Source: Liolophura sinensis (taxonomy: Eukaryota; Mollusca; Polyplacophora; Chitonida; Chitonidae). Taken from it: 64,000 nt of DNA. The DNA is taken from the NCBI RefSeq assembly GCF_032854445.1, contig NC_088297.1, positions 13,499,039 through 13,563,038 of the forward strand. The letters run 5' to 3'. Position 1 is the first letter of the stretch, and each line of letters starts with the position of its first letter. Positions 4,101 through 61,181 of the stretch are shown in pieces. The notes beneath the pieces are model-generated. The model saw only the letters and a list, made by a program, of their open reading frames with translations. It did no database searches and was not told the origin of the DNA. The position numbers and the translations under genes were made by a program.

Positions 4101-7100
4101 TGCTGAGACTTGTAGTTTACTCTCCAAATAAACCCCAAATAACCTCTGTAAGATCTATACAACTCTGAAAAGCAGGTAAAATGATCGTTGTTATGAACGA
4201 AATTTGAAAAACAGAACAAAACACAAAAATGATTCAAAATATCAGATGAAAGAGCGTGGAAAGTTAATTGCAAATGTAATGTCTAATATTTTTTTCGTCT
4301 ATTTTTTCTTCCAAAGAAAAGGGTATTTGAAAATATTTTTGTATGGTGAATATTTGGGACCACCTTTTGGTACCTATCGTCCTTGCATTATAATGCTCTA
4401 TATAGGGATGTGATGGCGTGCCCCCCTTAAACAACTTAGTTTCAAATGTCTTTTCTCATTGAAGAAAATTGCCCAGAAAGTGTTTATCACCACATATATA
4501 ACTAACAGTTTCAAACTCTTTCATCTAACGTCATGTAATTTTTATGTTTTCTCCACCTAGTTCAAATTATTTACCACATGTACATGTATGTGTACATACT
4601 ATAATTGCACTAAAAAGTAGTCCAGAAAAGAGCAGTTTTGAAGCCAGATAATAGTCATAAATATTACTAATGGTGATAAAACCTACATTTTTCAGTAGTA
4701 TATTATTTGACCTACATGTAATCCAAGTAAACCTTAAAAAACTATTTTGAGTTAAATGTAAAGCAGAAAAAGGTAAAAAAAAAAAAAAACACCCCAAAAA
4801 ACAAACACCAAAACTTTTTTATGGCCGAGATTTTAAGTGAAGTTCAGTACAGTATTTGGAATAGCCTCCTGGGCTTCATGTTACATGTGTCTGTATTGAG
4901 GAGTTCATTATGTAGTCATGTGTGTATGTACTTAAACAAACACGGCAGATTATCCTGCAAGAATAGGAAGATGTGACAAATTTATATGTTGTTCTAATAA
5001 TGAAGTCTATTGATAATGTCAACATTAAATCTGTCCCAGTCATGAAAAATGGACACACTCCAGTGTTAACTGTTATGCGGCTGGAGTTTGTGAGTATTGT
5101 CTTGATGTTATTGAATAAATGAGTATTCATTTGGACAGAAATATGGATATTTGACCCTGGAAATCATTGTAACCATTTGGAAATCACAGTAAATCCCATG
5201 CACGTGTAGGGTTGTTATTATTCATAGGTATTGTTGAACTAAAAAACTATGTTATGTGAATTGTTTAAAGGCAGATTGAACTCCTGGTGGGTGATTATTA
5301 AATGGTTTAGAACTGCTGTAGCGGTGTTGGTTGTGTAAACCGATGCTGCTAAACCTTCTTTTGTACCTCGTCAAATCCATTGAATCCTCGGTCAAGGAAT
5401 TTAATGAGGCGTGAAATAAGGTTCAGGTTAGATATCAAACACCAAGATTTTGACAAGGTGCCAAACAAGGTTCAGCGCCTTTGGGTTACACAACAGACAC
5501 CTAGGCAAAGGTGTTAAAGTCTGTTCTGCCCCAAAAAATTAAGGAAATGAGGCAAAACTGCATATTTCACGTAGCTTTTTTCTTCCGTCCTCTTTCATTC
5601 TCTCCACAGAAGTCATGCATTTTAGCCCAATCAGCGGCGAGCTTAGCCATTGAACTTGACTTAGATACATCATAGCTGCGTATGCATGACGTCGTGTTTT
5701 ATTATTGCATGATGTAAGACAGTAAAAGCTTACCGTACATGTATAATGACGTCATACCACTGAGCTCAGGTTGGAACGTCATGAAACAAAGGTTTCTTTT
5801 TCCTAGCTATGGCATCGAGGTATAAAATATCAAAAATGTCAAAACAAAGGCGATATATATATAAAGTGTGCGAAGTAACACTTTTATCACTGAAGGAAAT
5901 TCCGATAGTTTGCCTTTATATAAATCATAAAAGCAAATATAACAAATAAACAAACTCAACTTCTTTTATTTGCATTAGCGTGAATAGTTGACATATCGGT
6001 GTATGCAAATTAGTTCATTTGTTACCTTGGTCATATTTTTGGCAACTTGTTGTTACTTTTTTAAGCAAATAATGAGAAAATATGTTAAGGCATTTGGATG
6101 ATAATTTTGCTCGGGCAGAGCATAATATACAGGTCTATTCGCCAGGGCTCTGTTTGGAATTGGGGCCTCCGTGGCTCAGTCGGTTAGCGCGCTAGCGCAG
6201 CGTAATGAACCTGGAGCCTCTCACCAATGCGGTCGCTGTGAGTTCAAGTCCAGCCCATGCTGGCTTCCTCTCCGGCCGTAAGTGGGAAGGTCTGCCAGCA
6301 ACCTGCGGATGGTGGTGGGTTTCGCCCAGGCTCTGCCCGGTTTCCACCCACCCTAATGCTGGCCGCCGTCGTATAAGTGAAATATTCTTGAGTATGGCGT
6401 AAAACACCAATCAAATAAAATAAATAAATCTATTTGGAATTACATGTAATCCCTTTGATCTTTTTCCTAATTTGCAGCCACAAATGCCCCCAACTGGGAA
6501 CTAATTTCCCAAAATGTACACTAGCTTGACTGTAAATACTTTTTGAACAATGGGTCTAGTGTGAGGTGTAACATGACAAATGAAGTTTTGTGTGTGTTTG
6601 ATTATGGTTAACATAAATAAGGAAATCAGTATTGTCCCTTTTCTTGTAGTATGTGAATTTGTACATTTACCTTACTTGGAAAAGTAGGCAGGATCGTTCA
6701 GACTGTCCAGCTTAACTGATTTCATACGTGCACATATTCATGAGATTTTTCTGAGGCTACAGTGCCCTTAATTTCACATCTGCACTGTACATGTATAATA
6801 CCTTTGATTGAAGATTAAAGGCCCGTGTTCAAACCCGACCAGGGAATTTGTAGATTCTAACCCTCTTATCCTGTGTGCAGCCTTAGTGACAATAAGCAGT
6901 CAGCAAGCTTTTGTGGCCGTTTCTGCCGTCTAATGCTTGTTGAAGACCACTTGTCCTTCACCAGTGTGGTGTACATATCTGTATGTTTGGGAAAGTTCGT
7001 CAGTAATTGCTGAAGGTCAGTGGTTTAACCTAAGTGCTTTGGTTCCCTCCATTCAAAAACTCGCCACCGTGATATGTACAAGTGAAAATTCTTCAGTATG

Positions 7101-10100
7101 TGGTTAAACAGCATTTAAATACATGAATAAATCTAATACATGTAGTCCTCGAACAAGATCAAATACATAAATAAATCAAGTCCTGTCATTCTTGAGCAAA
7201 GATCAGCAGTGATCATTCCTGAAAAACTTGGTAGGATAATCCTGATGAACTGAAGGATTAATCCTGCACAAATGCTCAGCACCTCTTTATCTGCATGATG
7301 CACATGTATGTGTATCATCTGTGTTTCAGATTAGCTTCTTGGTGTGTCAAATTGTAGCACTGGGGCTGACCATCCTGTTCCGCATCGACTTTCAACTACA
7401 TGTACATCTGTGTTTCAGATGAACTTCTTGGTGTGTCAAATCGCAGCGCTGGGGCTGGCCATCCCATTTCGCACATACCTGTCGCCCTCCAAAACCAGCC
7501 CTAAGATCCGCCATTGTGTTGAGCTTGTCACTGGCCTCCTTCTGGCCGGTTTTTGTTTCGGATAGTAAGTTCTCTTTTGCATGTAGAACTAACCTTGTGG
7601 TTTGTCAACCCTGTTCACTGTGCTCAGAAGCTTGGCATCCATTTTTTAGGCCATAATTAAAAATATGTTAATGAATGCCCGACCCACCCTTCTATAGTTG
7701 GACATACTCTTAAATTTTTATTATGCTTTTTGATGAAATTTCTTTTTCTGTTTTTCTCTTAATGTTCATATCCTATAACCCATTCTTTTCAATTAGCCTG
7801 AATAAAGTTTACTGACCGACCTACCCTTTTTTTCTGTCATAGGGGTTGGTGCTTTGTTGGCAAGAAACGATTCACAATAATTGTATCACCATTAAAGTGC
7901 CTTTACATCGTTTGAGATACATATTCTTATCAGTACCTCGACCAGTATGGCATACAGATTTCTTTCTGCAGGTGAAAAATCAAATACCAATGCTTGCCAA
8001 AGGCCAGTGGTTTACTCCTGGCACCTCCTCCTCCCATACAACTGAATGCCGTAGAATATAAAGAAAGATTACAACTCACTGACACGCGTGTAACAGATTG
8101 CCAATAAACTGTGGAGAAGTAAATCACCAAATTTTGGCAAGCTACTATCAAACTTTCCCACTTGTGACATACTTCTTATTGGTGGAGGTCAACTACTCTC
8201 TGGCAAATTTCATGCAGAACTGCAAAAGAACGCTTCATGCCACCAAACCCTTGAAAACAATGAAGAGACAGTAATGTTGAAATTCTCGGTCAGAGAACGG
8301 GATTGAACCCAGAATGTGGGTGTTTGAAAGGCAAGCATGTTAACCAAGCCTCCACAACCTTCCTGAGTTGGTAATTCATTGTAAATTACACTTTCACTTT
8401 CACGTTTGTCTTTTCAGTCAAGTGTTACACCTCATCGTGCCCTCCAGTGCCAGCTATGCCATCATGAAGTTTGTGAACTGTCGAATCTCGCACAAAGTGG
8501 TGTTTGTGGTTGTCCTGGGTTATCTCTCTGTGGCTCACATCTACCGGCAGATTTATGACTACGGGGGCTACACACTTGACATCACAGGGTACTCTTTTAT
8601 TCCTCTTACATACAAAGTGTATACTATGTAGTTTGTTAGGTTTAAGTGCAAATTAAGCTTTAGTTTTCCAGGCTGATTTTTAAAAAAAATAACATAATGA
8701 AGTTAAGAGACCTGGGTTTTATCCCGGGTCATGTCACAAAGACTTAACACTCAGCTAACAGGTTAGGGCAAGGAAACATGACTGGTTGGCCCAGTGTCAG
8801 TATAATGTGACTGAGTGGGATACATACATGTACATGTTAGTCTGTTGACGGTTTCGGTTGCCTAACAGTTAGAGGATCTGCCTCCAAGTTGGGAGACCCA
8901 AGGATCAAATCCGGGTCAGGTCACATCAAAGACTGTGAAAATGGTACTTGCTTCTGCCTCACATAGCGTTCAGCACTGAGAGACTAGAGAAAGAAAACAG
9001 GACTGGTTGGCCCAGTGTCAGTATAGTGTGACTGGGTGAGGTGTCATGTCTGGTGTCTTCAGTATGATACTACAGTGGCAGAGCACTTTGGCGGCATGGA
9101 CTTGCCCTTCCATAAGAAGACACAGTACATATACACACACACCTAATGACTCCTCGTCGTCACATGACTGAAATATTGCTAAGTGCAACATTAAACCCCA
9201 AGCATTCATTCATCCATTCATTCCAACAGTAGGCACATGCATGTATATGATGCCATTGTATAAGTGAAAACTGCTAGAGAATGGCTGTCTCGCTGACCAG
9301 CTGACCTCTCTTGTATTTCTGGGTGTGTTCTCTACAGGCCTCTGATGATCATGACCCAGAAGTTGACCAGTATGGCGTTCAGCCTCAGTGACGGCATGCT
9401 GGACGACAACACCAAACTCACGGAGGATCAGCGCAATCAGGCCATCAGGTAACTGACACATTTATCTCCCCTCCCTGCTCCCTCCCACTTAAAGAAAAAG
9501 AAAGTTACAGATGACTGGAAACTACGTAAAAATACTTTCATTTATTTTTTCAGATGTTTTTAAGAGTGTTGAAAGGCATTTAAATATTTGAATACTATGG
9601 TGGGCTTTATGGGCCATACTGACGATATCGAGGAACATCACCTTTTTTCCTGATGTTCACCAGAAGGAAGGAATTTTTGGGAACATTTTTCAGTAATCTT
9701 GTAGTCATGGGTAAAAAGAGTTATCCAACTTTCAGTGTCATGCTTAAAGCTGGGTAAACTTCCTGTGACGTCAGAGTTCTTAACCTCTGATAGAATGGCC
9801 CATAAAGCCCACCTTAGAATTCACATGTTTGAGCACTTTAACTCTTTAACTCACAAAAATATAAAAAAATAAATGACTATTGATGCATAGTTTTAAGTGG
9901 TCTATTTTGGAGATGCCTGCTTCAGTTTTTAGAAGTCTTTTTCTTTAACCAACTATGCACATGTATATAATACATAGTGATATGCATGTGTTGTGATTGT
10001 ACTTTATGGTGTAAAACACCAAAGGAAAAAAATAAAGAAACAAATGATTCTGTTGACTATACGTACCCACGCAATATGCTCGTGTATTAAATTTATCGTT

Positions 10101-13100
10101 TTTGAGAGCATTTCTTTAATTCGTGAATTTCTTTAATTCTTCAACTGTTTTGCATGTTTACAATGCGTTTATTCATGCATTTTCTGAAGGTAATACTTGA
10201 TGTAGACTGATAAAATTATGTTTTTTGTGAATCCCTGAAGTTGGCCAATCCAAGCAATGTAGTTTTATCGCAATAATCAAATTAAAATGTTGGTTAGAGC
10301 TCTAGCGCAGCGTAATGACCCAGAAGCCTCTCACCAATGCTGTCGCTGTGAGTTCAAGTCCAGCTCATGCTGGCTTCCTCTCTGGCCGTAAGTGGGAAGG
10401 TCTTTCAGCAACCTGCTGAAGGTCGTCGGTTTCCTCCCACCATAATGCTGGCCGCCGTCGTATAAGTGAAATATTTTTGAGGAAGGTGCTAAACATCAAT
10501 CAAATAAATAAATAAATAAATAAATCAAATTAAAATGTGGATAAATTGCACTGAGAAGTTGTTCTTTGATATACGAAAAAAGGTTGAGGAATTAGGGTAA
10601 GGTAGCACAGCTTTAATCTATAGTTTCTGAACTGATTTTTGAACATTTGTAATATACCTGGTGACATATTGTACTCTGCTCACGAGCTGCAGATTCTGAT
10701 TCTGGAACGTTGTGCGTCACTGGTATGACTTTGCACTTCTACATGTACATACGAAGACACCCATGTAAAGGCACTTTGCACTCATGCTAATACAAAGAAA
10801 TAGTTCAGTGACTCCTATTTTTTATTTGTTTTTCTACGTTTCCTGGATTAATCCTGTAAATTTTTAATTTCAACAAACTTGTGTGTGTTATAAGTGAAGT
10901 GAAAATCTATACATATAGATATATAGTGATGTTTTTAATAGTTGTGTGTAGTATGTCGGAGTAAAAGGATAATTATGAAGGCATTTCTTAATTGTTAATT
11001 AGTCAGAAAAGTATTTCAGTGACCCCCATTTACTTTTCTGTATTACTTGTTCTCACAAAAAATGCTGTCATTACACAATTGAAGAAAAGAAAAACCCTTA
11101 GCCTTACAGTGGGATGGTATATCAGCAACCTGTGGATGGTTTCCCTGGGCTGTGATTGGTTTCCTCGCGCCAAAAATCTCTGGCTGTCGTCGTAAAAGTG
11201 AAATATTGCTCAGAGAGCATATACTTACCTTAGATGGACAGCCAGTTAGTTTCACTCAATTAGTTTATATGTATAAATATATTGTAATGTTCAAGGACAA
11301 GCTACACAAAAGGTCCAAAGGGGAACAGAATCTGAATTGCAGTGCTTGTGCACTACCTAGGCGTTTCATGAGCACACATACACTGATAATTGTGATGTAA
11401 TAAAGCGCTCACCTGGGGACCCCATGACGTCGGTGGTTAGCATGCCAGCTCGGCCGATGACCCAGGAGCCTTTCACCAATGTGACTGTTGTTAGTTCAAA
11501 TCCAACCCATGCTGGCTTCTCCTCTGCCCATACATGTGAAGGTCTGCCAGCAACCTGCAGATGGTTGTGGGTTTCAACAGGGGTCTGCCCGGTTTCTTCC
11601 CATAATAATGCTGACCTATGCCATAGAAGTGAAATATTCTTGAGTAAGGCGTAAAACACAGTTCAGATAAATCAGGATAGTTCATAGCTTTGCACCGTAT
11701 TGTTAATGACGGCAAAGAATTTTAAGGGTTGCCCATTATCTAAGAAAGATGTTACAAGATGTTTATGGGATGTTAGTCTGATGGGATGTTATGGGACATT
11801 GACTGCACAGAGAGAAAATACTTACCTACCTTAAGTGGACTGCTAGTTGGTCATTTTGACCCATTTTGCAAAGATGTACAATTTGATTGGCTAAAAAAGT
11901 TCTGCTGCATGTTGTTGTTGTCATTGCTGAATCATTAGAACTCTTTTGAACATGAAAACAAGAAAAGTATGTCAAATGCAGTAGCTTATTCAAGGCAGAT
12001 TGATTAATCAGAAGCCTAGAATTTTCTCTGAATCGTGCTAAAGTACCGTACCTGTACAGCTTGTGAACTGATGGATGGAGAGTTAATACAGAGTGAAAAC
12101 TGACGTACACTGTATATAACCATTGTAGGTCATGATGTTAAAAAAAGCTAGGATAAAAATGATTTCATTTAAAATACATTGTTATTATGTACTAAAGGTG
12201 AAGAAAACATAAAAATGATGCCAAAATCAGATGAAAGAACGTCAGAACTTAATTGCAAATATGATATTTTTTGGGATTTTTTTGAGAGAAAAAGGCATTT
12301 AAAAATATTTTTGTGTGGTGTGTATTTGGGACTAATTTTTGGTACTTATCATTGTTGCATAATAATGTTTTAAATAAGGATGTGATGCTTGTCTGATAAA
12401 TTTATTTGAATGTAGATTTGTTGTTTATATTGAAACATATGCATTTAACCTTAATTATGATAATATTTATGAACATATTAAAAGTTTAAATATAATCCAG
12501 GTTGAAGTTTAATACATTTGTTAGCTGAAAAGAACAGATTCTAGTGCAAAAATCCTCATTTATGACAATATTAAACAAAGACTATAAATACCAAAAGGTG
12601 GTCCCAAATGCCCGCCATACAAAATTTTTTTTGAAGTGTCTTTTTCTCCTTATTTAGACCACATTTAGGGAATAACTTTTCGCGCTCTTTCATCTGAATT
12701 TATGTCATTTTTATGGTTTCTCCACCTTTAAATGGACATTTGGTTATCTCTACCTTCAGATTTGGTTTGATGGATGGGTTTTGGTTTCAGGAAGTTACCC
12801 GGCCTCTTGGAGTTTTTCAGCTTTTTGTTCTGTTTCCATGGTATCATGTGCGGTCCTCTGTGTTTTTACCGGGATTACATCGCTTTTATCGAGGGAACGA
12901 ATTATACACCTCCGAAGGTACTTGTAGGCAGTTATCTCCCTTTGAGAAGTTCATAGTAATATGAAAAACTTAAGATAATTCGGTCTCAAAAAAAAAAAAA
13001 CAACCTTTTTATAAGATATTTTCATTTGTGGCATTTCTTGGTAAGGAAAAAATGTAAAAAAAAAAAAATAGCAGAATTCAAAATATTTTCCGGACAGATC

Positions 13101-16100
13101 TTCTTCCACTGATTCTTAAAAGTACATGTACTTGAAATTTGTTGAAAGAGTTGTGTTGAATGAATTTTGGGAAGTTTTCAAAGTTCAGTGTCATATAATA
13201 TCATTATGTATTCAAAATGATTGGTCCTTGAAAGTGCTTGGAAAACATTATGCCTTCTTATATGCAGGCCACAGTAATTTGAATTTCTTGTTTTATGAGC
13301 AGAATGAATCTTTTTCTTAATGTTGCTGTACGATATAAAAATGAAAATAAATTTGTTTGAAATTTGATTTGAGATTTGATTTTTTTCCTGTTGAAGACAT
13401 ATTTACGTGATCTGAATGCCTTGAAAAGTAGAAAAAGAATAAAGAAAGCAAGGGATTTTCAGTTTTATTTATATTCCATTTTTCGATTTTTATTCTTGGC
13501 TCACACGTAAAACACAAAATACAGTTCACCTACATTCAAAATTTTATAGGTTCTTGTCTTTTTATACCTTTCTTTCACCTAAGCATTCTGAAAGTCTACA
13601 TATTACATGCGTTTAAATATTTTCTTGATGGTGTTTCTGGAAAAAGCAGTTAAAGCTTACACTCCTTTCGTTTGGTTCCAGGACCTTGTAATTGTGTTGG
13701 TATTGTCTCAGCCATGAGTCTTGATGATTCTGAACTTATATTCAATGGTGTGTTCCGTTGGTTAGCTCCCTAGCGCAGCGTAATGACCCAGGAGCCCTCA
13801 CCAATGCGGTCGCTGTGAGTTCAAGTCCAGCTCATGCAGGCTTCCTCTCTGGTTGTACGTGTTAAGGTCTTCCAGCACCCTGTGGATGGTCATGTGTTTC
13901 CCCCGGGCACTGCCTGGTTTCCACCCACCATAATGCTGGCCATCGTCGTATAAGTGAAATATTCTTGAGTACGGCGTAAAACACCAATAAATAAATAAAT
14001 AAATATTCAATTATGTTCTTTTTCCATGCAGCCAAAAAATGGAAATGATGTTAAAATTCAGGCAGAGCCTCCATCACCCAAGGTAAGTCTGTGTGTTTGT
14101 CAGTCTGTGTATTTGTCAGTCTTTGTATCTGTCAGTCTGTGTGTCTGTTAGTCTGTGTGTCTGACAGCCTGTGTGTCTGTCAGTCTGTGTGTCTGTTAGT
14201 CTGTGTTTCTGTCAGCCTGTGCGTCTGTCAGTCTGTGTGTCTGTCAGTCTGTGTATTTGTCAGTCTGTGTATTTGTCAGTCTGTGTATTTGTCAGTCTGT
14301 GTTTCTGTCAGTCTGTGTATCTGTTAGTCTGTGCGTCTGTCAGTCTGTGCGTCTGTGTATCTGTCACTTTCTGTGTCTGTCAGTCTGTGTGTCTGGCAAT
14401 CATAAAATGTTTTTATTCAGGCTTTTACAAGACGAGGTGAAGACAAAACCGAGTTGAGGCTCTTGCGAACTAACGCACATGCTGACAAGGCTGTAGAGCC
14501 AACTGACCCGGCTGTGCGAGATGTGTATTCAGTCTAGCTAGTAGTGTAAAATCTCGCTTTTTAGCAGCTTTAACTTCACAATAATGAGTTACACATGAAG
14601 TTTTGGCATGTGCTGCTTAATACAGTATCAGCCAATATAGTTACATTTTGGTCAATTTGTTACATTGGTAACAAATAGCCATTTAAATGTAGTCTCCCCT
14701 GTTACAGTGGCAAAAACTCACTTAACATCCTAATCATCGAGTTACGTGTAACAAGTATTAGCAACAAGTTTCTCACTGCAGTAACAGTCATGTTGTCAAT
14801 GTTTCCAGGGTCCTGTGATTGAGAAGTTGACCATTGCCGCAGTCTGTGGCCTCCTCATGATGTTTGTTGTACCTTATTTTCCCCCCGAAAGACTTACAAG
14901 TAAGTTGACGTGCAAAAATTTCTTACAAGACTTTTTAAAAGATGTTTCATTTTCTACCTCAGTGTGCAACCAAGTATGTTTTCAAACTTTCATACTCATC
15001 AGAGACATGAGAGAGGTTAAAAATTGGGAATGTGTTATTGTTTGTCCTCCACAAGGACACAATCGCGATGTATAGCTATTATAAAACTGGTGTAGAAGAC
15101 GTTGTGAAGACAATCAAACAAACTTTTTGATATTATAAACAATCGTGACAATCTTCTACTTTCATTTTTTTTTTTTTTTTTTTTTGTGTTTGATTACCAA
15201 CCCACTGTTCTTTTTTGCAGCCAGAGAATATCTTGAAGAGACAACGTTTTTACAGAGATCTATTTTCTTGCTCATCTGTGGTACCTTGGCCAGATGTCAG
15301 TACTACTTTGCCTGGGTGTCATGTAAGGGTTTGTTTTCTCATTCTTTTTGGTGTTGAGACTTGTTATGTGCTCGTTCTCAGTGTTTTTTCTCATTTTGAT
15401 TCTTGTGGTTATTGTTACAAAAGATAGTAGTAAAAGAAAACTGAAGAATTTTGCCAGTGTACTATTAATCAAGGAAAAAAAAAAGAAAACAACAGATGTC
15501 TGATCTAGTCACAGGATGTAACATACATCCCCTAATTTTTCAGCCTTTCCAACCTCCTCAGTAACCAATATTTTGAAACATTCTGAGAGAACTTTGGGGT
15601 TTAGAGAAATAATAGTTTTCTGAAGCTGTTACCTTTAGTGACACGACAAATCATTGTTACATTGTATTTTCATAAAAAGTGTATGCATAAACTTCACTGA
15701 AAAGAGGGCTTTAGTGGGTGAAAAGATTTACAGTATGTGTATTTCAAAATTGCGCCCCCTCGCCCCCCATACTCTAGAGAGAAAATGCCACCCCCCCCCC
15801 CAACCAAAAATAACTGACATTGATTTCTATAAAATTACAACAATGTTTTATAGAAATACTTGATTTGAGGCAAAAGTTGGGGTCATAAACTGTATCTTTT
15901 CCGTGTATGTACGAGTTAGAGGTGACTGTAGTTCTTCGACCCTTTTGGATGGATGCAAGGTTTTTATTTTTAGCATATTCTGAAGGTGTTGTTCTTTTTA
16001 GAATGGTAAAATTATCCTTACAGAAATATCCAACCAAGGGTAAAATTATAATATTATACGCTCAGTGGTACGTGATCGACTCTTCAAAAAGGCCCCGACT

Positions 16101-19100
16101 GAAATTAATTTTTCGTGTTTTTTCAGATGCCAATTTTTATTTATTTTATTTCATTTAATTACTTGTTTTTAGGGGTTTTTTTGTCGGCCGTTTGAAACGT
16201 CCCTCTGTTTACAGGTGACAGGCTTTCTTTTTGAGATGTAAAATTTGTCTCCTGCTGTTAATGCAAAGCTGGCCTTGTAGCACTTTGACGGGTATACGGT
16301 ATGTGATATCAAGTAGATGAAGATTCCCTTCAAGTGTTTTCACTGGTATTCATTTGGATACCCGTAAAGTAGTGTTGCCATCTTTTTTGGGGGATGTATA
16401 CTTTACTGAACTGGCCAGTGTTCTTGTGTTCCCATAGGGAGAGGAGATTTCAAATAAATTACTCATCGTGTGAGATAATCATTGTAAAATGTTCAAGGAG
16501 ATCTCAAAGTAAACATTGCAGCTGTCAGCGTCTTACAGCGGCAAAATATAGAATTCTCCGTGATCCAATTGTTTTTCCTACGCTATACCTTAACAATTCA
16601 CTCCTAATCTCGCGAAATTGAATTGCTGAGAATTGCTGCGTTATCAAAGAATCCCCAACAGAGCCCCATTTACATGTTGGCATCCACCATTGTGTTTCTC
16701 TTATTTCACACATATCAGTTGTCAATCAGGTGTGTTTATACCTTCACTCCCTGTCAAAACTTTATGTGGGGGAGCATGTAGCTGGGAATATGTAGCGGAG
16801 AAAACGACGAGCGATAGTTGATTCTTGAACAAGGCAGATCGATTCTTTTTCAAGAATCAGCTGTTGTATGTTATTTCTCCTACATAAAGAGGTTTGTAGT
16901 AACGTAACAACTATTGATTTTTATTCAAGAATTGCGCGGTGTCATTTCAAGCAAATAATAAAAAAAAACTGTTACATCACAATTGGCGTCAGTGAATGCT
17001 CTTCCGTGCCCGCTAAACCGCATTATTTGCGTAGTGGAATATAATATGTAACATGGTTGATCTTTCGTTACAGTGTTACATGAAGTTGTAGTGTAACAGC
17101 ATTAGAACTTTTTGGTGGGGGGTGGAGTGGGGGGGGGGTAAGACCCGAAAGATACATGTAGCTAGTACATTGTATTGAGGGAACTGAATAAATGTGTGGA
17201 AAAGCCTGTAACCAGGGTGTTACAGTACGTATAGATTAGATTAACATCTAGGAGAATATGCACCTATTATCGTGTGTCCTCTACTGTTGTAGCGGATGCA
17301 CTCAATAACGCCGCTGGCCTGGGCTTCTCGGGGTATGATGAGGAAGGAAAAGAAAAGTGGGACCTGATTAACAACGTGGATATTTACAGATTAGAGGTGA
17401 GATGATTCGAACAGCCAAGTGTCTGGTAGAATCTGGTTCATTTAGAGAACGGACTGGTGGCAGAAAACCCTCCCATTACCACAACATACGATCAAGTGAC
17501 TTCTTTTTTGTTTTGCCGAGTACGACCTACTGTCATGCCAGATTTCTCCGTGTTTAGTGGTTTATATACAAAGATGGCTCAGCACAAAACTCAGCAGCAG
17601 TCGGAGTATAAAGTGGGTCACATTAAAACATTTTCAATCATTTTAATACGATAAATACTGTAGTACAGGTACAAATCTTATATTTACTGAAAGTCAAAAA
17701 TTCAGGCAGGTTGGCTTACTTGCCTTCGGTAAGTCATGTTAGTGAAGCAGCACTAGATAAAAGAGCGTTGGAAATCCGTCCCGCAACATGGAGGCACATC
17801 ACACATACATGCACTGTAAGGATTCCTTTGTTGTCATATGGCTGAAAAATTGTTAAGTACGACGTTAAACTTCAAGCACCCACTCACTCACTCACTCTCT
17901 GGGTAAGAAGAAAAGAAAAAAAATCTGTGTCCATGGTGAAATCGCTAAGATCTTGACACTCAGGTTTCTTTTCCTCATAAATCTACATGACCTCTATTCT
18001 GTAAGTGAAAAATTCTTATGTGTAAGTACCCAAATTCTTCTAATTTTTGGGACAGATATTAGTAGTGTTGAATGTAGAATATTACATTTTCTTTACCAGC
18101 CTTTTGGAAATGTAAGGAAATAAGTGTGTTAGCAATTAGATGGTCTTACCATGTGAAAAAAAAGAAGTTCAATATTCCTGTTACAATTACGTGTATATTG
18201 GCTTAAATGAGCACACCAGGTGTCCGCAAAATTAGAAGAAACAGGGTTCATCACAGATTTGTAACTTGTAAGATGGATGTTACAGTGTTGCACATTTTTC
18301 TTGATTCAGACGAATGCGTCTCGGTTTTCACTTTTTCATAATGAGGTCCTGGCTTTCTAGGAAATTGCCTGTGCGATATTTGGACTTTTGCGACAGTTTC
18401 TGATGTCTTATTTTTAGATGGCCACAAGCTTGAAGGTCAACATAGACTGCTGGAATAAGATGACGCTGATCTGGTTACGTCGGGTCGTTTATGACCGCTC
18501 ACCCAGAGCCTACAGCACATTGACCGTGTTTGCCGTCAGCGCCATCTGGCATGGCTTCTACCCAGGCTACTACTTGACCTTTGGCTCAGCTGCTCTCTGT
18601 ACTGTAGCAGCAAGATTGGTGAGTTCTGCCTGGTTGTCTGCCCCTGAATGCATGGTGGTCCAGCTTAGCTGCTCTCTGTACTGTAGCAGCAAGATTGGTG
18701 AGTTCTGCCTGGTTGTCTGCCCCTGAATGCATGGTGGTCCAGCTCAGCTGCTCTCTGTACTGTAGCAGCAAGATTGGTGAGTTCTGCCTGGTTGTCTGCC
18801 CCTGAATGCATGGTGGTTTAGCTCAGCTGCTCTCTGTACTGTAGCAGCAAGATTGGTGAGTTCTGCCTGGTTGTCTGCCCCTGAATGCATGGTGGTCCAG
18901 CTCAGCTGCTCTCTGTACTGTAGCAGCAAGATTGGTGAGTTCTTCGTGGTTGTCTGCCCCTGAATGCATGGTGGTCCAGCTCAGCTGCTCTCTGTACTGT
19001 AGCAGCAAAATTGGTGAGTTCTGCCTGGTTGTCTGCCCCTGAATGCATGGTGGTCCAGCTCAGCTGCTCTCTGTACTGTAGCAGCAAGATTGGTGAGTTC

Positions 19101-22100
19101 TTCGTGGTTATCTGCCCCTGAATGCATGGTGGTCCACTCCTGAATTGGACATAGGGTTTGTTTAGATTGGACGATGGCTTAAAAGGAAAGACAACAAATA
19201 ATGTAACTCCAGTTATTTCAGATGAGGGATGGGAACATACCTTAAAGGTGGAGAAATTTTTCTTTAAGGAGAAAAAGACACTTGAAAATATTAAACCTTA
19301 ATTTGGATCATATTTATATTTTTAATATGTTCATAAATGTCATCATAATTTAGGTTAAATGCATATGTTTCGATATAAACAACAAATTTACATTGAAATA
19401 AATTTATTAGACAAGCATCACATCCTTATTTATAACATTATTATGCAACAATGATAAATACCAAAATTCCGTCCCAAATACCCACCATACAAAAAAAAAA
19501 AAAATTTCAAATACCCTTCTCTCTTGAAAAAAAAAAAATCCCCAAAAATATTAAAGATCATAATTGGAAATAAGTTTTGACGCTCTTTCATATGATTTTA
19601 ACATCATTTTTATGTTTTCTTTTTTCTGATGTGCTTGGTACATGTACCCCTGTAAATCCACTTTTAATCAGGAGGTCTTACATGGTTTTGGGATGGGTCA
19701 AGTTGACGTGGTTGAAGCTACTGGAAACACTTATTTATTTATTTGATTGGTGTTTTATACCATACTCAAGAATATTTAACTTCTACGACAGCGGCCAGCA
19801 TCATGGTGGAAGGAAACTGGGCAGAGCCCAGGGGAAACCCACAACCTTCTGCAGGTTGCTGACAAACCTTACCACATACGGCCGGAGAGAAGCCAGCGTG
19901 AGCTGGACTTGAACTCACCGCCACCGCTGGAAAAACTATGTGACATGACTCATACCCCACGGTTATATGTTTGAAAGGCGAAACAGAGTTCAGGTGATGT
20001 AAGCAGAAATAGTTGTACCCTTGGTTTATAGAGATAACTTGTACCTGATTGGTAAAAACTGATAATATGGTGGAGCTTTCAATTGTTTCATTTTACATGA
20101 CTCTGCTTACTTTGAACTTTGGTATCTCTGTTGTGCTACATGAGAAAAAGCTTGAAGTTATGCTTGTTAGACTTCACTTAGGATACTTCATCTATGCGTA
20201 TGATGTAGGGTTATTGTCTTTTGTTTCAATGGACTGATTTATACAGAGTTGGCATGAAGATGTTAAGTGGAAAATAAGCTACTGCCATGCGCAAAACAAA
20301 CTTTGGGAAGCAGGTCGAATTGGCCGAATGTTTAAGTCTGGAAGAGGGAATTTGTGGATTCCTCAGCTCTCGGTAAACATGATGCTTTGTTGGCGGTCAC
20401 CAGCTTTTGTGGGGTCGTTGCGTAGTGTAAAGTTTGTTGAAGACCTCTGATATGATGTGCATATGTGTATGTCATACATGGTATAGATCATCAATAACTG
20501 GCTAAGGGTGACAAGAAATGTTTGTGGATATTTCCAGTCCTCTTGTAATGTCTCAGTTTTATCTGTTTTAGGGGAAGAGGAATGTCGAGGGATATTTTTG
20601 GTCCTCCCATAAAGTGTCAGTTTTGTCCGTTTTAGGTGAGGAGGAACGGCCAGGGATATTTCAAGACCTCCTGTAATGTCTCTGTTTTGTCCGTTTTAGG
20701 TGAGGAGGAATGTCCAGGGATGTTTCAAGACCTCCTGTAACGTCTCTGTTTTTGTCTGTTTTAGGTGAGAAGGAATGTCCAGGGATATTTCAAGACCTCT
20801 CTTAGCGTCTCATTTTTGTCTGTTTTAGGTGAAGAGAAATGTTGAGGGATATTTTCAGTCCTCCCATAAAGTGTCAGCTTTGTCTGTTTTAGGTGAGGAG
20901 GAATGTCCAGGGATATTTCAAGACCTCCTGTAATGTCTCTGTTTTGTCTGTTTTAGGTGAGAAGGAATGTCCAGGGATATTTCAAGACCTCCTGTACTGT
21001 CTCTGTTTTTGTCTGTTTTAGGTGAGAAGGAATGTGCGGGGATATTTCAAGACCTCCTGTAATGTCTCTGTTTTTGTCTGTTTTAGGTGAGAAGGAATGT
21101 GCGGGGATATTTCAAAACCTCCTGTAATGTCTCTGTTTTTGTCTGTTTCAGGTGAGAAGGAATGTCCGGGTATATTTCAAGACCTCGTGTAACGTCTCTT
21201 TTTTTTGTCTGTTTCAGGTGAGAAGGAATGTCCGGGGATATTTCCAGTCCTCCCCGAGCCTCGCCTTCTTCTATGACTGCGTGACCTTCATGTTTACTCG
21301 CATTGTCAATGTCTATTTAGCAGTACCCTTTCTTATACTGGAATTGGTCCCTTGTCTGCAGTTGTTTTGGTAAGTTAAATAGAAAAGAACCCCTTGTCTG
21401 GTTTTGGTAAGTTATATAGAAAGAACCCCTTGTTTGCAGTTGTTTTAGCAAGTGAAATGGAAAAGAATCCCTTGTTTGCAGTTGTTTTGGTAAGTTATAT
21501 AGAAAGGAACCCTTTGTCTGCAGTTGTTTTGGTAAGTTATATAGAAAAGAACCCCTTGTCTGCAGTTGTTTTGGCAAGTGAAATAGAAAGGAACCCTTTG
21601 TCTGCAGTTGTTTTGGTAAGTTATATAGAAAAGAACCCCCGTTCTCACTGCATAATTGTTGGGTCTTGGTGACAATAAACTGTTGAACACGACGCTCGCT
21701 GGGAAGTGTGCACAGTCTAATGTTTGTTTAAGATCACTTGTTATCCACCAATATTGTGTGCATACTTGTACATGACATACGGGGAAGATTGTTATTAACT
21801 TGCCTGGTTTTTTCTCCTCACCTGTGAAACAGACCACCATCATAGAAATGAAACATTCTTGGGTATGGCGTTAAACAAGTATCCCATAAATATACATGTA
21901 TGAATTAAAAGAAATAGGTACTCTGATATCAGCAATAGCTCAGGGTCACAAAATGCTGTTTTATTATGGTACTAAAGATGAAAATGTTAAAATGCTTCCA
22001 TCCAGTTATCATAGGCAGTTTGACTATGTAGGTGTAATAGTTGAAATGAAATATGCTGTTGCCTATAGTCCATTACAAAGCAACATGTTGAAACATTTTC

Positions 22101-32400: not shown

Positions 32401-32609
32401 TGTAATTTATACTATAACAATACTTTGCGTGAGATATTTGGTCATAATATCAGGTTACCCAATGTAATGTTAGGACATGCATATATAGGCCTGTGTAGCC
32501 TGTAATATTTGAGGCAATTTTTATATATTTTGTATTGGTTTGTGTAATATTTGTGAATGATAATATATATATACATCGTTTGTCAGTTACTCTGAAAATT
32601 TAGTGTTAC

Positions 32610-35600
32610 TTGTCTTCTTTGAGGGTGCTGCTTGTACTTTCTGTGGGTGTTGCTTGTCCTTTCTATAGGTGTTACGTCCTTTCTGTGGGTGTTACATGTC
32701 CTTCCTGTAGGCGTTACATGTCCTTTCTGTGGCCATTGCTTGTCCTTTCTGTGGGCATTACATGTCCTTTCAGTAAGTGTTACTTGTCCTTTCTGTGGGC
32801 ATTACGTGTCCTTTCTGTGGCCATTGCTTGTCCTTTCTGTAAGTGCTACTTGTCCTTTCTGTGGGTGTTACATGTCCTTTCTGTGGGCATTACTTGTCCT
32901 TTCTGTAAGTGTTCTTTGACGGTGCTGCTTGTACTTTCTGTGGGTGTTATATATCCTTCCTGTGGGTGTTACATTCCTTCCTGTGGGCGTTACATGTCCT
33001 TTCTGTGGCCATTGCTTGTCCTTTCTGTGGGCATTACATGTCCTTTCAGTAAGTGTTACTTGTCCTTTCTGTGGGTGTTATATGTCCTTCCTGTGGGTGT
33101 TACATGTCCTTCCTGTGGGTGTTACATGTCCTTTCTGTGGCCATTGCTTGTCCTTTCTGTGGGCATTACATGTCCTTTCAGTAAGTGTTACTTGTCCTTT
33201 CTGTGGGCATTACGTGTCCTTTCTGTGGCCATTGCTTGTCCTTTCTGTAAGTGCTACTTGTCCTTTCTGTGGGTGTTACATGTCCTTTCTGTGGGCATTA
33301 CTTGTCCTTTCTGTAAGTGTTCTTTGACGGTGCTGCTTGTACTTTCTGTGGGTGTTATATATCCTTCCTGTGGGTGTTACATTCCTTCCTGTGGGGCGTT
33401 ACATGTCCTTTCTGTGGCCATTGCTTGTCCTTTCTGTGGGCATTACATGTCCTTTCAGTAAGTGTTACTTGTCCTTTCTGTGGGTGTTATATGTCCTTCC
33501 TGTGGGTGTTACATGTCCTTCCTGTGGGTGTTACATGTCCTTTCTGTGGGTGTTGCTTGTCCCTTCTGTGGGTGTTGCATGTCCTTTCAGTAAGTGTTAC
33601 TTGTCCTTTCTGTGGGTGTTATATGTCCTTCCTGTGGGCGTTACTTGTCCTTTCTGTAAGCGTTACTTGTCCTTTCTGTAAGCGTTACTTGCCCTTCCTG
33701 TGGGTGTTACTTGTCCTTTCTGTAGGTGTTACTTGTCCCTTTCTGTGGGTGTTGCTTGTCCTTTCTGTGGGTGTTTGCTTGTCCCTTCTGTGGGTGTTGC
33801 TTGTCCTTTTCTGTAGTGTTACTTGTCCTTTCTGTGGGTGTTGCTTGTCCTTTCTGTGGGCATTGCTTGTCCTTTCTGTAAGTGTTACTTGTCCTTTCTG
33901 TGGGTGTTACATGTCCTTTCTGTAAGCATTACTTGTCCTTTCTGTAAGTGTTACCTGTCCTTTCTGTGGGCGTTACTTGTCCTTTCTGTAAGTGTTACTT
34001 GCCCTTTCTGTGGGTGTAGCATGTCCTTTCTGTAAGCGTTACTTGTCCTTTCTGTGGGTGTTGCTTGTCCTTTCTGTGGGTGTTGCTTTTCCCTTCTGTA
34101 GGTGTTACTTGTCCTTTCTGTGGGTGTTATATGTCCTTCCTGTGGGCGTTACATGTCCTTTCTGTGGGCATTGCTTGTCCTTTCTGTAAGTGTTACTTGT
34201 CCTTTCTGTGGGTGTTACATGTCCTTTCTGTAAGTGTTACTTGCCCTTTCTGTGGGTGTAGCATGTCCTTTCTGTAAGCATTACTTGTCCTTTCTGTAAG
34301 TGTTACCTGTCCTTTCTGTGGGCGTTACTTGTCCCTTTCTGTAAGTGTTACTTGTCCTTTCTGTGGGGCATTACTTGTCCTTTCTGTGGGCGTTACTTGT
34401 CCTTTCTGTGGGCGTTACTTGTCCTTTCTGTAAGTGTTCTTTGAGGGTGCTGCTTGTACTTTCTGTGGGTGTTGCTTGTCCTTTCTGTAAGTGTTACTTG
34501 CCCTTTCTGTGGGTGTAGCATGTCCTTTCTGTAAGCATTACTTGTCCTTTCTGTAAGTGTTACCTGTCCTTTCTGTGGGCGTTACTTGTCCTTTCTGTAA
34601 GTGTTACTTGTCCTTTCTGTGGGCATTACTTGTCCTTTCTGTGGGCGTTACTTGTCCTTTCTGTGGGCGTTACTTGTCCTTTCTGTAAGTGTTACTTGCC
34701 CTTTCTGTGGGCGTTACTTGTCCTTTCTGTAAGCGTTACTTGTCCTTTCTGTGGGTGTAGCATGTCCTTTCTGTGGGTGTTACTTGCCCTTTCTGTGGGT
34801 GTTACTTGTCCTTTCTGTGGGTGTTACTTGCCCTTTCTGTGGGTGTTACTTGTCCTTTCTGTGGGCGTTACTTGTCCTTTCTGTAAGCATTACTTGTCCT
34901 TTCTGTGGGTGTTACTTGCCCTTTGTGTGGGTGTTACTTGTCCTTTCCGTGGGTGTTGCTTGTCCTTTCTGTGGGCATTGCTTGTCCTTTCTGTGGGTGT
35001 TGCTTGTCTTTTCTGTGGGTGTTGCTTGTCCCTTTCTGTGGGTGTTGCTTGCCCTTTCTGTGGGCGTTACTTGTCCTTTCTGTGGGCGTTACTTGTACTT
35101 TCTGTGGGTGTTGCTTGTACTTTCTGTGGGTGTAGCATGTCCTTTCTGTAAGTGTTACTTGTCCTTTCTGTGGGTGTTGCTTGTCGTTTATGGGTGTTGC
35201 TTGTCCTTTCTGTAAGTGTTCCTTGTCCTTTCTGTAAGTGTTCCTTGTCCTTTCTGTGGGCATTGCTTGTCCTTTCTGTAAGTGTTACTTGTCCTTTCTG
35301 TGGGCATTGCTTGTCCTTTCTGTGGGTGTTACTTGTCCTTTCTGTGGGCATTGCTTGTCCTTTCTGTAAGTGTTACTTGTCCTTTCTGTGGGCATTGCTT
35401 GTCCTTTCTGTAAGTGTTACTTGTCCTTTCTGTGGGCATTGCTTGTCCTTTCTGTAAGTGTTCCTTGTCCTTTCTGTGGGCATTGCTTGTCCTTTCTGTA
35501 AGTGTTACTTGTCCTTTCTGTGGGCATTGCTTGTCCTTTCTGTAAGTGTTACTTGTCCTTTTCTGTGGGCATTGCTTGTCCTTTCTGTAAGTGTTACTTG

Positions 35601-35735
35601 TCCTTTCTGTGGGCACTACTTGTCCTTTCTGTGGGCGTTACTTGTCCTTTCTGCAAGTGTTGCTTTGTCCTTTCTGTAAGTGTTACTTGTCCTTTCCGTG
35701 GGTGTTGCTTGTCCTTTCTGTATGCGTTACGAGAG
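32610..35735 (+). repeat. 3.1 kb array of a 22-bp unit, about 140 copies
   Basis: The unit is TTACTTGTCCTTTCTGTGGG then TG or CG, with variants TAAGTG and GGCCAT. A composite block starting TTCTTTGACGGTGCTGCTTG occurs near 32910 and again near 33320, about 400 bases apart, so part of the array has expanded as a higher-order repeat. The unit has no stop codon in any forward frame and 22 is one more than a multiple of three. All three + frames therefore stay open and cycle through the same 22-residue repeat (CPFCGCYLSFLW and continuation). I do not call these frames genes. Confidence 0.95.
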
Positions 35736-59400: not shown

Positions 59401-61181
59401 TCGTCTCTCTGTTCGAAATAAAAAAGATCATTAAAGCTAGAGCGCATATGACATAACCTAATTCTTTGACCTTTTCAGCCTTCTCTGCAACCAATATTTT
59501 GAAACTATTCTCAGAGAGCGATGGTGTGTAGAGAAATAATTTGCTCAGTTTCATGAAGTTTGTACATGTATCTATAATGACACAAACAAATAAACTTTTG
59601 AGTCACTTTCATAATAATTGTATGCATAAATTCCACTTTCCAATTGCTTTAGTGGTAGAAAAGGTTGAAGATTTACAGCATGTAACAATGAAGGCTATTA
59701 GACATCCAGGTTAGCACTAGAACAGAGAAATTATTATAAGACTGGACAAATTGTATTTATTACTAACATTTTGTTTCTTTCTTCTTTTTTGGTTTCTTTT
59801 GGAAGCTTTGGATATTCACATGTTACACAGGTGTTTGTGGGATATGCAGTTACACACATTAATTTTTTTTTTAACATGTTCTGGTTGTTTTTTTTTTAAC
59901 TTGACTGAGTTTATCAGCCTTTAAGCAAGCCTCTGTATCATGAATTGTAGTCACCTATATGAAAACAATGTATCCATGCAAACTTGTGAGACAAATTTGT
60001 TTACCTGTATTTTAAATGTTTGCCTTTTTGAGGAAATGTTTAGTGATAAGCAGGATGGTAATGACATGACAGTGCGAGACTGTTAATATATCTTGATTTT
60101 TTTAATAAACACAAGATGTGTCAAATATCTAACACATGTTGTAGTTGTAAGAGATTGATTACAATGCAGATAAATTAACAGTTTATGGCTTTGATTATGT
60201 GCCTAAATTTCAATTACCAGGTTAAAATAACGTGCTACCTGTCAGTTTAACTGGATTTCGGATCCAATATCTGGGTCTTTTCAATGCTAAACTGCGTAGG
60301 TGCCTTGTCATCCTACACTGGACGGCCAAGTTTGTTTCCAGTAAAACTCTCAAAATAAATAGTTTTGTTTGTACTCTAAAATCTATGTTTTAGGCCACAA
60401 ATGTATCAGAAATGAAAATGTTTTAACCATTAACTTATCCATTCCATTCCCAGTTCTGGCCACTAACTTACCCATGTTTTCCCCAGTTCTGACCACTAAC
60501 TTACCCATGTTTTTCCCAGTTCTGGCACCTAACGTGCCCATGTTTTCCCCAGTTCTGGCCACTAACTTACCCATGTTTTCCCCAGTTCTGGCCACTAACT
60601 TACTCATGTTTTCCGTAGTTCTGGCCACTAACTTACCCATGTTTTTCCCAATTCTGGCCACTAACTTACCCATGTTTTCCCCAGTTCTGGCCACTAACTT
60701 ACTCATGTTTTTCCCAATTCTGGCCACTAACTTACCCATGTTGTTCCCAGTTCTGGCCACTAACTTACCCATGTTTTCCCCAGTTCTGGCATCTAACTTA
60801 CCCATGTTTTTCCCAGTTCTGGCCACTAACTTACCCATGTTTTTCCCAGTTCTGGCCACTAACTTACCTGTACTGTTCCCAGTTCTGTCCACTAACTTAC
60901 CCTTGTTGTTCCCAGTTCTGGCCTCTAACTTACCCATGTTGTTCTCAGTTCTGGCCACTCACTTACCCATACTGTTCCCAGTTTAGGAGCATTTCCCCAT
61001 ATTTGTACTGGTTCTCCAGCAGCAGGCGATACAGGCCGAGGCAGGCGTGAGCGGTCCGGGCAGCGATCTTCCCTATGCCCATCTTCAGCTCCTGATTCAC
61101 GACAAACACCATCTTGAATAAATCCCCGCACACCGGGAAATTCCCATCCTCATCGTCTGTGCTACTGTCTCCCTCGTCTTC
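56376..61181 (-). CDS. PTRH2: Pth2-type peptidyl-tRNA hydrolase (PTRH2 family), 5'-incomplete, 3 exons found
   Basis: Joined exons: 61181-60967, 59408-59294, 56465-56376, giving 139 residues to TGA in phase with GT-AG junctions. Known of the family: Pth2 enzymes release peptides from peptidyl-tRNA; the human protein (Bit1) is mitochondrial. Seen: an acidic lead (EDEGDSSTDDEDGN), then the Pth2 domain with FKMVFVVNQELKMGIGKIAA, the conserved His in RTAHACLGLYRLL, TKVVLGA, the signature QDAGRTQVAAGS, and the C-terminal DLVTGKLKLL. An in-frame TAG lies just before the first exon's acceptor, so more coding exons must lie upstream; none was recognised up to 64000. Many invertebrate relatives have a UBA domain before the acidic linker, so the missing part may encode one (inference). 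Confidence 0.9.
56504..57145. mobile_element. Two SINE family A copies in opposite orientation (56504-56760 +, 56898-57145 -)
   Basis: The + copy starts GCTTCCGTGGTTCAGTCG and ends CACCAATCAAAAAAACAAAC. The - copy starts TTTATTTGATTGGTGTTTTA and ends TAACAGAGGCCCCCC. Together they form an inverted pair inside the PTRH2-family intron. Confidence 0.78.
57300..57541 (+). mobile_element. MITE family 2 copy
   Basis: The left end GTACTGTAAGTCTTCCAAC and right end GAAAAGGTTGAAGAATTAAG are inverted relatives. The interior carries ACAATTATTATGAAAATGAC and TTGTTTGTGTCGC. A 117-codon frame crosses it but matches no protein I recognise. Confidence 0.6.
57545..57990 (-). mobile_element. SINE family C (57545-57830) and SINE family A (57838-57990), both reversed
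   Basis: Family C is recognised by CGCCAAAGTGCTGCCATCAC, ACACCAGGCCAATCAGTCC and the CTCTCAGTGCTGAGTACC block. The family A piece starts TTGATTTGATTGGTGTTTTA and loses its head after GGCTGGAGAGG. Confidence 0.7.
58000..58714. other. Intron sequence, possible unclassified repeat
   Basis: At 58400-58690 the sequence is rich in TTAAGCC/GGCTTAA motifs in both orientations with CGTTCACAC-type stretches, which looks like a decayed transposon. I cannot assign it. Confidence 0.3.
58715..58928 (+). mobile_element. MITE family 2 copy
   Basis: From GTACTGTGAATTGTCAACTT to GAAAAGACTGAAGAATTTGG; the interior GATTATGAAAATGACATTA is shared with 57300-57541. Confidence 0.6.
59043..59251 (-). mobile_element. 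MITE family 1 copy, next to a PTRH2-family exon
   Basis: Reversed copy from TTCTTCTAAAATGTGGGACA to CAAATTTTAGAAGAATTAGG. It ends 43 bases beyond the donor side of the exon at 59294-59408. Confidence 0.68.
59294..59408 (-). CDS. PTRH2: PTRH2-family middle exon (38 residues)
   Basis: Between TTTCGAACAG and the donor GTATGC. It completes a Gly codon (GG|A), then encodes ETKVVLGANSTTELMELKVK and ATSQELPHYIVQDAGRTQ. QDAGRTQ with its Asp and Thr is the core of the Pth2 active region. Confidence 0.94.
59448..59695 (-). mobile_element. MITE family 2 copy
   Basis: AACCTAATTCTTTGACCTTT to AAAAGGTTGAAGATTTACAG. It resembles 15534-15742 in the same orientation (CAACCAATATTTTGAAAC, TGTATGCATAAATTCCACT). 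Confidence 0.55.
59700..60440. other. Intron sequence with no recognised feature
   Basis: AT-rich with T runs at 59862-59872 and 59890-59898. Confidence 0.35.
60440..60985 (-). repeat. 33-bp minisatellite containing the PTRH2-family exon end and donor, about 17 units
   Basis: Read on the - strand the unit is AACATGG|GTAAGTTAGTGG, then CCAGAACTGGGAA. The first unit is the exon end itself (GGGAACAGTATGG|GTAAGTG, donor at 60966-60965). Nearly every unit keeps a full GGGTAAGT donor. The period is 11 codons, so both strands stay open (MGKLVARTGKN repeated on -). The frames are not taken as genes. Confidence 0.94.
60967..61181 (-). CDS. PTRH2: PTRH2-family exon with acidic linker and start of the Pth2 domain
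   Basis: It follows CACCTCTTAG. It encodes EDEGDSSTDDEDGNFPVCGD, LFKMVFVVNQELKMGIGKIA, ARTAHACLGLYRLLLENQYK and YGEMLLNWEQYG. The last codon is split GG|A. If unspliced, the frame stops at once (GGG TAA). Confidence 0.92.

Follow-up and report, generated by a model that had tools for sequence, protein, structure and literature searches.

Mirage minisatellites at exon-intron junctions of a chiton genome and their excess at 5' splice sites

The question raised by this locus is whether the tandem arrays that coincide with exon-intron junctions in one gene, and again in a neighbouring gene, reflect a peculiarity of that place or a property of the genome, and what kind of event would generate them. 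The window, which is the whole stretch of 64,000 nt that was analysed (C3:13499039-13563038), is part of a genome of which 609,464,459 bases in 632 contigs were searched. Three genes are modelled in the window and named by their Pfam matches: an MBOAT gene on the forward strand (Pfam MBOAT at residues 93-390 of the model protein), and a squalene/phytoene synthase gene and a PTH2 gene (Pfam PTH2, E=1.7e-27) on the reverse strand. Closer names for these window genes are presumably MBOAT1/2-like and FDFT1. The gene models are our own predictions, and all junctions are predicted ones. The models comprise 39 junctions (22+9+8, with 22 in the MBOAT gene), a few small exons being doubtful and at least one exon being missed; an exon recognised by eye at 14810-14898 is absent from the MBOAT model. 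A sequence-only reading of this DNA had counted six junction repeats among 40 junctions. The number of junctions is about right, and five of the six repeats stand, as four arrays and one two-copy duplication (Table 1), whereas the exon 6 donor drops out.

Table 1. Junction repeats, neighbouring exons and one intronic array of the window, in window positions (TRF, tandem repeat finder).
Feature	Position	Strand	Unit and copies	Basis and remarks
Exon 2 acceptor region, two copies	7320-7408 and 7409-7497	+		alignment; second copy holds the exon starting at 7419
16-bp array	14086-14395	+	16 bp	TRF; after exon 6 (14032-14082), intron from 14083
MBOAT exon 10	18418-18618	+		gene model; intron starts at 18619
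Exon 10 donor array	18584-19136	+	79 bp x7.0, 96%	TRF and gene model
Exon 11 acceptor array	20526-21253	+	64 bp x11.3	TRF and gene model
MBOAT exon 11	21218-21369	+		gene model; arrays at 5' and 3' ends
Exon 11 donor array	21349-21639	+	42 bp x7.1	TRF and gene model
PTH2-gene donor array	60447-60983	-	33 bp x16.3	TRF and gene model
PTH2-gene exon	60967-61181	-		gene model and Pfam

The anatomy of the arrays is regular. The first unit of the 79-bp array holds the final 35 bases of MBOAT exon 10 together with the donor, which is intact in 7/7 copies, and the first unit of the 42-bp array holds the final 21 bases of exon 11 with its donor. At the other side of exon 11 it is the last unit of the 64-bp array that holds the acceptor and the initial 36 exon bases, the AG being intact in 11/11 copies. 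These two periods had been read as about 41 and about 65 bp, respectively. In the PTH2 gene the 33-bp array takes in the donor and the 17 exon bases that precede it, in agreement with what had been proposed for this PTRH2-family gene, and the single 89-bp duplication proposed for the exon 2 acceptor is also found, its copies being 74% identical across the whole alignment and matching at 50/56 positions over the first bases; this duplication is absent from the TRF list at score 40. When the five junction repeats are searched against the genome, no match is seen beyond their own loci (the search skips very common words, such that rarity is not proven), and they therefore look like local duplications rather than insertions of a repeat family, as expected for the separate events that had been suggested. 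A unit present at many unrelated places, as in a dispersed or introner-like repeat, is not found for any of these five.

The 16-bp array near exon 6 is of a different nature and is rejected as a junction array: it begins at intron base +4, does not include exon sequence, leaves the donor outside and is a dispersed repeat, with at least 87 rows of genome matches, its own included. Behind this array, at 14421-14537, an acceptor-like site is recognised by eye, followed by a frame that is in phase with exon 6 and ends in TAG; the MBOAT gene may have an alternative terminal exon here. A SINE-like repeat, its copies tailed by A/T-rich sequence, is visible by eye at about 6170-6430, 10290-10530 and 13760-14010. 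Tandem arrays make up 15.9% of the window, and the longest, with a 22-bp unit (32603-35730, 3.1 kb), is tied to no modelled exon.

Arrays of this kind are known from amphioxus as mirages, where two reports describe them for Adh3, the globins BflGb6 and BflGb9, troponin C and PGBD5, and where RT-PCR suggested that they do not disturb regular splicing (PMC3087553, PMC3902484). In their sequence, the arrays described here have the features of mirages. A tandem unit with a predicted exon-intron junction is found in four arrays of the window and in 13 of the 63 arrays detected by TRF in 22 further gene regions, and both 5' and 3' boundaries are involved, among the sampled genes (15 donors, 4 acceptors) as well as within the MBOAT gene. 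As in the descriptions from amphioxus, these are minisatellite-like duplications of exon-intron boundaries, many copies of which have AG/GT, and the unit lengths vary between genes (10-160 bp in amphioxus). The differences are that the host is a mollusc instead of a cephalochordate, that rates are measured, that donors are enriched and that the arrays are known here from sequence alone. Minisatellites touching exon-intron boundaries have also been described for internal tandem repeats in human segmental duplications (PMC2812944), but these concern recent paralogues in which splicing is altered with transcript support, of which there is no sign in the sequence here. Intron gain by tandem genomic duplication, as reported for potato RdRp (PMC4974935) and in the Rogers model (cited in PMC3087553), likewise starts from a duplication over splice-site-like sequence, but none of the 228 introns predicted here has both ends from one duplication. 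Among the papers listed in a literature search that covers few subscription journals, none describes mirages in molluscs or chitons, a mirage rate or a donor bias.

The abundance of mirages was determined in 22 gene regions that had been picked through their Pfam matches, with repeats disregarded (nine chaperonin-family and 13 myosin regions), in which exons were predicted with a match-anchored gene model before TRF was applied. The chaperonin sample covers 9/11 loci, two long intronless matches being left out, and the myosin sample covers 13 of about 20 loci, picked for compactness before the arrays were known, some of them partial; 14 Aldedh matches and five further MBOAT matches are excluded. 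Read by eye, the predicted proteins are family members up to the relevant junctions, with the exon at the far side missed or doubtful in three cases (the arrays in L001, in L021 at 473, and in L023); several exons are missed in L004/L005, and in L006 a predicted donor at 1267 was dropped or moved by eye to 1245, the array starting 11 bases before, with no conserved exon end. When each 60-base junction is aligned locally with the intron it borders (1,500 bases at most), a near copy is found for 11/211 donors and 2/222 acceptors. The scores of these 13 matches range from 72 to 120, no control (eight mismatched introns per junction) reaches 28, and there is nothing between. Decayed mirages are thus not seen in the junction-versus-intron alignments of these regions, which suggests quick turnover or homogenisation. 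The open-frame length of profile matches was rejected as an indicator of arrays because it appears to chain exons. Two chaperonin matches, at C5:5566404-5568116 and C6:7942446-7943372, are long and unbroken, whereas in the remaining copies each exon gives a match of its own; the two could be retrocopies or foreign DNA.

A second sample consists of kinesin exons (100 of 132 matches, those with at least two stops and some lower-scoring ones being excluded), taken with 198-base flanks, which can miss long periods, and in this set 84 donors and 82 acceptors are callable. Five donors and two acceptors match, and counting L045 and L125 as the one locus that they are gives 4/83 donors and 2/81 acceptors, including a weak donor case (L083, 30 bp x2.4, 76%) and a weak acceptor case (L126, with just 8 exon bases in the array). 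At the L045/L125 locus (C11:27412983-27414830) a longer exon copy with its own Pfam match seems to lie 1.7 kb downstream, possibly as a pseudo-exon within the mirage array. The donor rate of 4.8% is in agreement with the 5.2% of the 22 gene regions. The contrast between donors and acceptors is not significant in the kinesin set alone (P=0.68) and is modest in the pooled samples (15/294 donors versus 4/303 acceptors, Fisher P=0.0096). About one in twenty sampled donor sites is a mirage. At the sampled rate of 19/597, the expectation for the MBOAT gene is 0.70 (P=0.034 for three or more, P=0.006 for four or more), where 22 junctions are assumed and the gene had been picked because it is conspicuous. 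In the MBOAT gene a feature that is ordinary in this genome is richly represented.

A control with randomly shifted junctions had been named as the way to detect a convergence of arrays on splice junctions, but we consider it unsuited to these data. In the 22 gene regions arrays cover 17.7% of intron bases and only 2.0% of exon bases, and they span 13/447 junctions (2.9%), so that random shifts would show a depletion; because arrays hardly enter coding exons, only an array whose founding unit lay across a junction can reach it. Each array was therefore moved to random places within its own gene, its overlap with an exon being kept below one unit, and donor and acceptor ends were scored separately. 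With the 63 arrays treated as independent and the period of one of them taken as 109, donors are spanned by 11 arrays as compared with 1.96 expected (5.6-fold, P=2e-6), whereas acceptors are spanned by two as compared with 1.92 expected, which is no enrichment. This outcome is preserved in 12 settings of the null, in which the expectation for the 11 donors is 1.30-1.99 and acceptors are at two with 1.77-1.95 expected or at one with 1.26-1.28 expected. The first 100 intron bases contain 14 array starts with 6.40 expected (P=0.006), and eight arrays end within 100 bases of acceptors, also with 6.40 expected. The proposed convergence is therefore retained for 5' splice sites and given up for junctions in general, and this donor bias is the new part of the finding.

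These observations are probably explained by separate local tandem duplications, common in this genome, that included a junction by chance and grew into the intron. According to this explanation a duplicated unit would happen to contain an exon-intron junction and would then expand into the intron as a minisatellite; the unit adjoining the exon body, being the first at a donor and the last at an acceptor, would remain the real junction, and the other copies would be removed with the intron. The extra copies indeed look intronic. In 11 of 14 donor arrays (11 sampled and three in the window) the reading frame runs into a stop codon ahead of the second donor copy, such that splicing at a distal copy would in most cases yield a truncated protein. 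With 114/127 junction copies intact as GT or GCAAG, the 14 real junctions counted in, we infer that the first among similar donors has to be taken wherever the protein is needed, the exon-proximal copy presumably being the one that is used. In the chaperonin-family gene L006 (gene-strand 7582-8043) a 66-bp donor array keeps the frame open over the 432 bases that follow the real donor, so that splicing at its distal donors would lengthen the protein by repeats of 22 residues.

The retained GT or GCAAG could also be taken to mean that extra donors aid splicing or provide isoforms, and mirage donors do have a somewhat higher median donor score (4.2 versus 3.2, uncorrected P=0.024). Such a benefit is nevertheless improbable, because the copies were found by their similarity to the junction, so that intact donors are expected anyway, and because, besides the frequent stops, only 6/14 periods are divisible by 3, with no frame preference; the splice variants that the sequence-only reading had envisaged find no support in the sequence. 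Its other suggestion, ongoing intron gain by tandem duplication of AG|GT, can be pictured for the 64-bp array, where most units have TTTTAG or TTTCAG followed by GTGA and the interval between two units could splice as a mini-intron, and a similar model was put forward for amphioxus mirages (PMC3087553). However, mutually matching ends are found in 0/228 predicted introns, so the sample gives no sign of this process, and we regard it as very improbable. Most improbable is an artefact of the assembly: tandem arrays can be misassembled, but the arrays sit at conserved exon edges in many genes, and the measured junction arrays are about 0.2-1.4 kb long, as compared with the HiFi reads of 8,347 bp on average, at 14X, given in the Liolophura japonica genome paper (PMC11068029).

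As regards the donor excess, the reading favoured here, over a benefit for the gene, is that tandem duplications arise more often at the 5' ends of introns, with GC-rich seeds helping. It is also conceivable, although rather unlikely as the explanation, that duplications begin evenly and that those at acceptors are lost, since an extra upstream AG would be used first, while donor copies are tolerated. This would be in agreement with the rarity of acceptor mirages in the pooled samples and with the absence of array ends from the last 25 intron bases (0 versus 1.69 expected), but such a filter lowers acceptors, which are at their neutral expectation, and cannot raise donors above random placement. 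Somewhat less likely still is an effect of composition only, in which GC-rich sequence seeds the minisatellites and windows across donors are simply GC-richer than the intron. The GC fractions (0.428 in intronic arrays, 0.369 in unique intron, 0.423 in donor windows and 0.402 in acceptor windows) fit this idea, as do the C-richer exon ends (P=0.004) and G-richer intron starts (P=0.021) of mirage donors, values that are uncorrected and come from nine tests with 11 versus 205 donors. The fitted GC tilt is, however, just 1.37-fold for donors (an expectation of about 2.7) and 1.14-fold for acceptors, and GC-rich seeding therefore explains part of the donor excess only. A mutational hot spot, composition and a survival filter may each contribute. 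In the hot-spot reading, which we put forward tentatively and hold to be doubtful as yet, 5' splice sites would be hot spots for the birth of minisatellites, where a process linked to recognition of the donor or to transcription of the intron start provokes tandem duplication, and thousands of genes of this genome could carry strings of near-identical donors. R-loops, which had been suggested as a shared cause of the junction arrays, are speculation.

While tandem arrays make up 15.9% of the window and 17.7% of the sampled intron bases, in the genome paper 0.08% is tabulated as 'Other (simple repeat, microsatellite, RNA)' and 14.04% is given as unclassified (PMC11068029), and the minisatellites probably fall in this unclassified repeat fraction. 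Going by PMC3087553 and PMC3902484, mirages had been an oddity seen in a handful of amphioxus genes. Since a mollusc is now found to have them in abundance, they are either of ancient origin in animals or appear in any genome that is rich in minisatellites. Whether 5' splice sites have a mutational role can be tested through the donor bias, as the genome has a published annotation and a transcriptome. Mirages are also natural experiments on how the spliceosome chooses among many near-identical donors, and if the hot-spot reading is true, the spliceosome must reliably pick the first of them.
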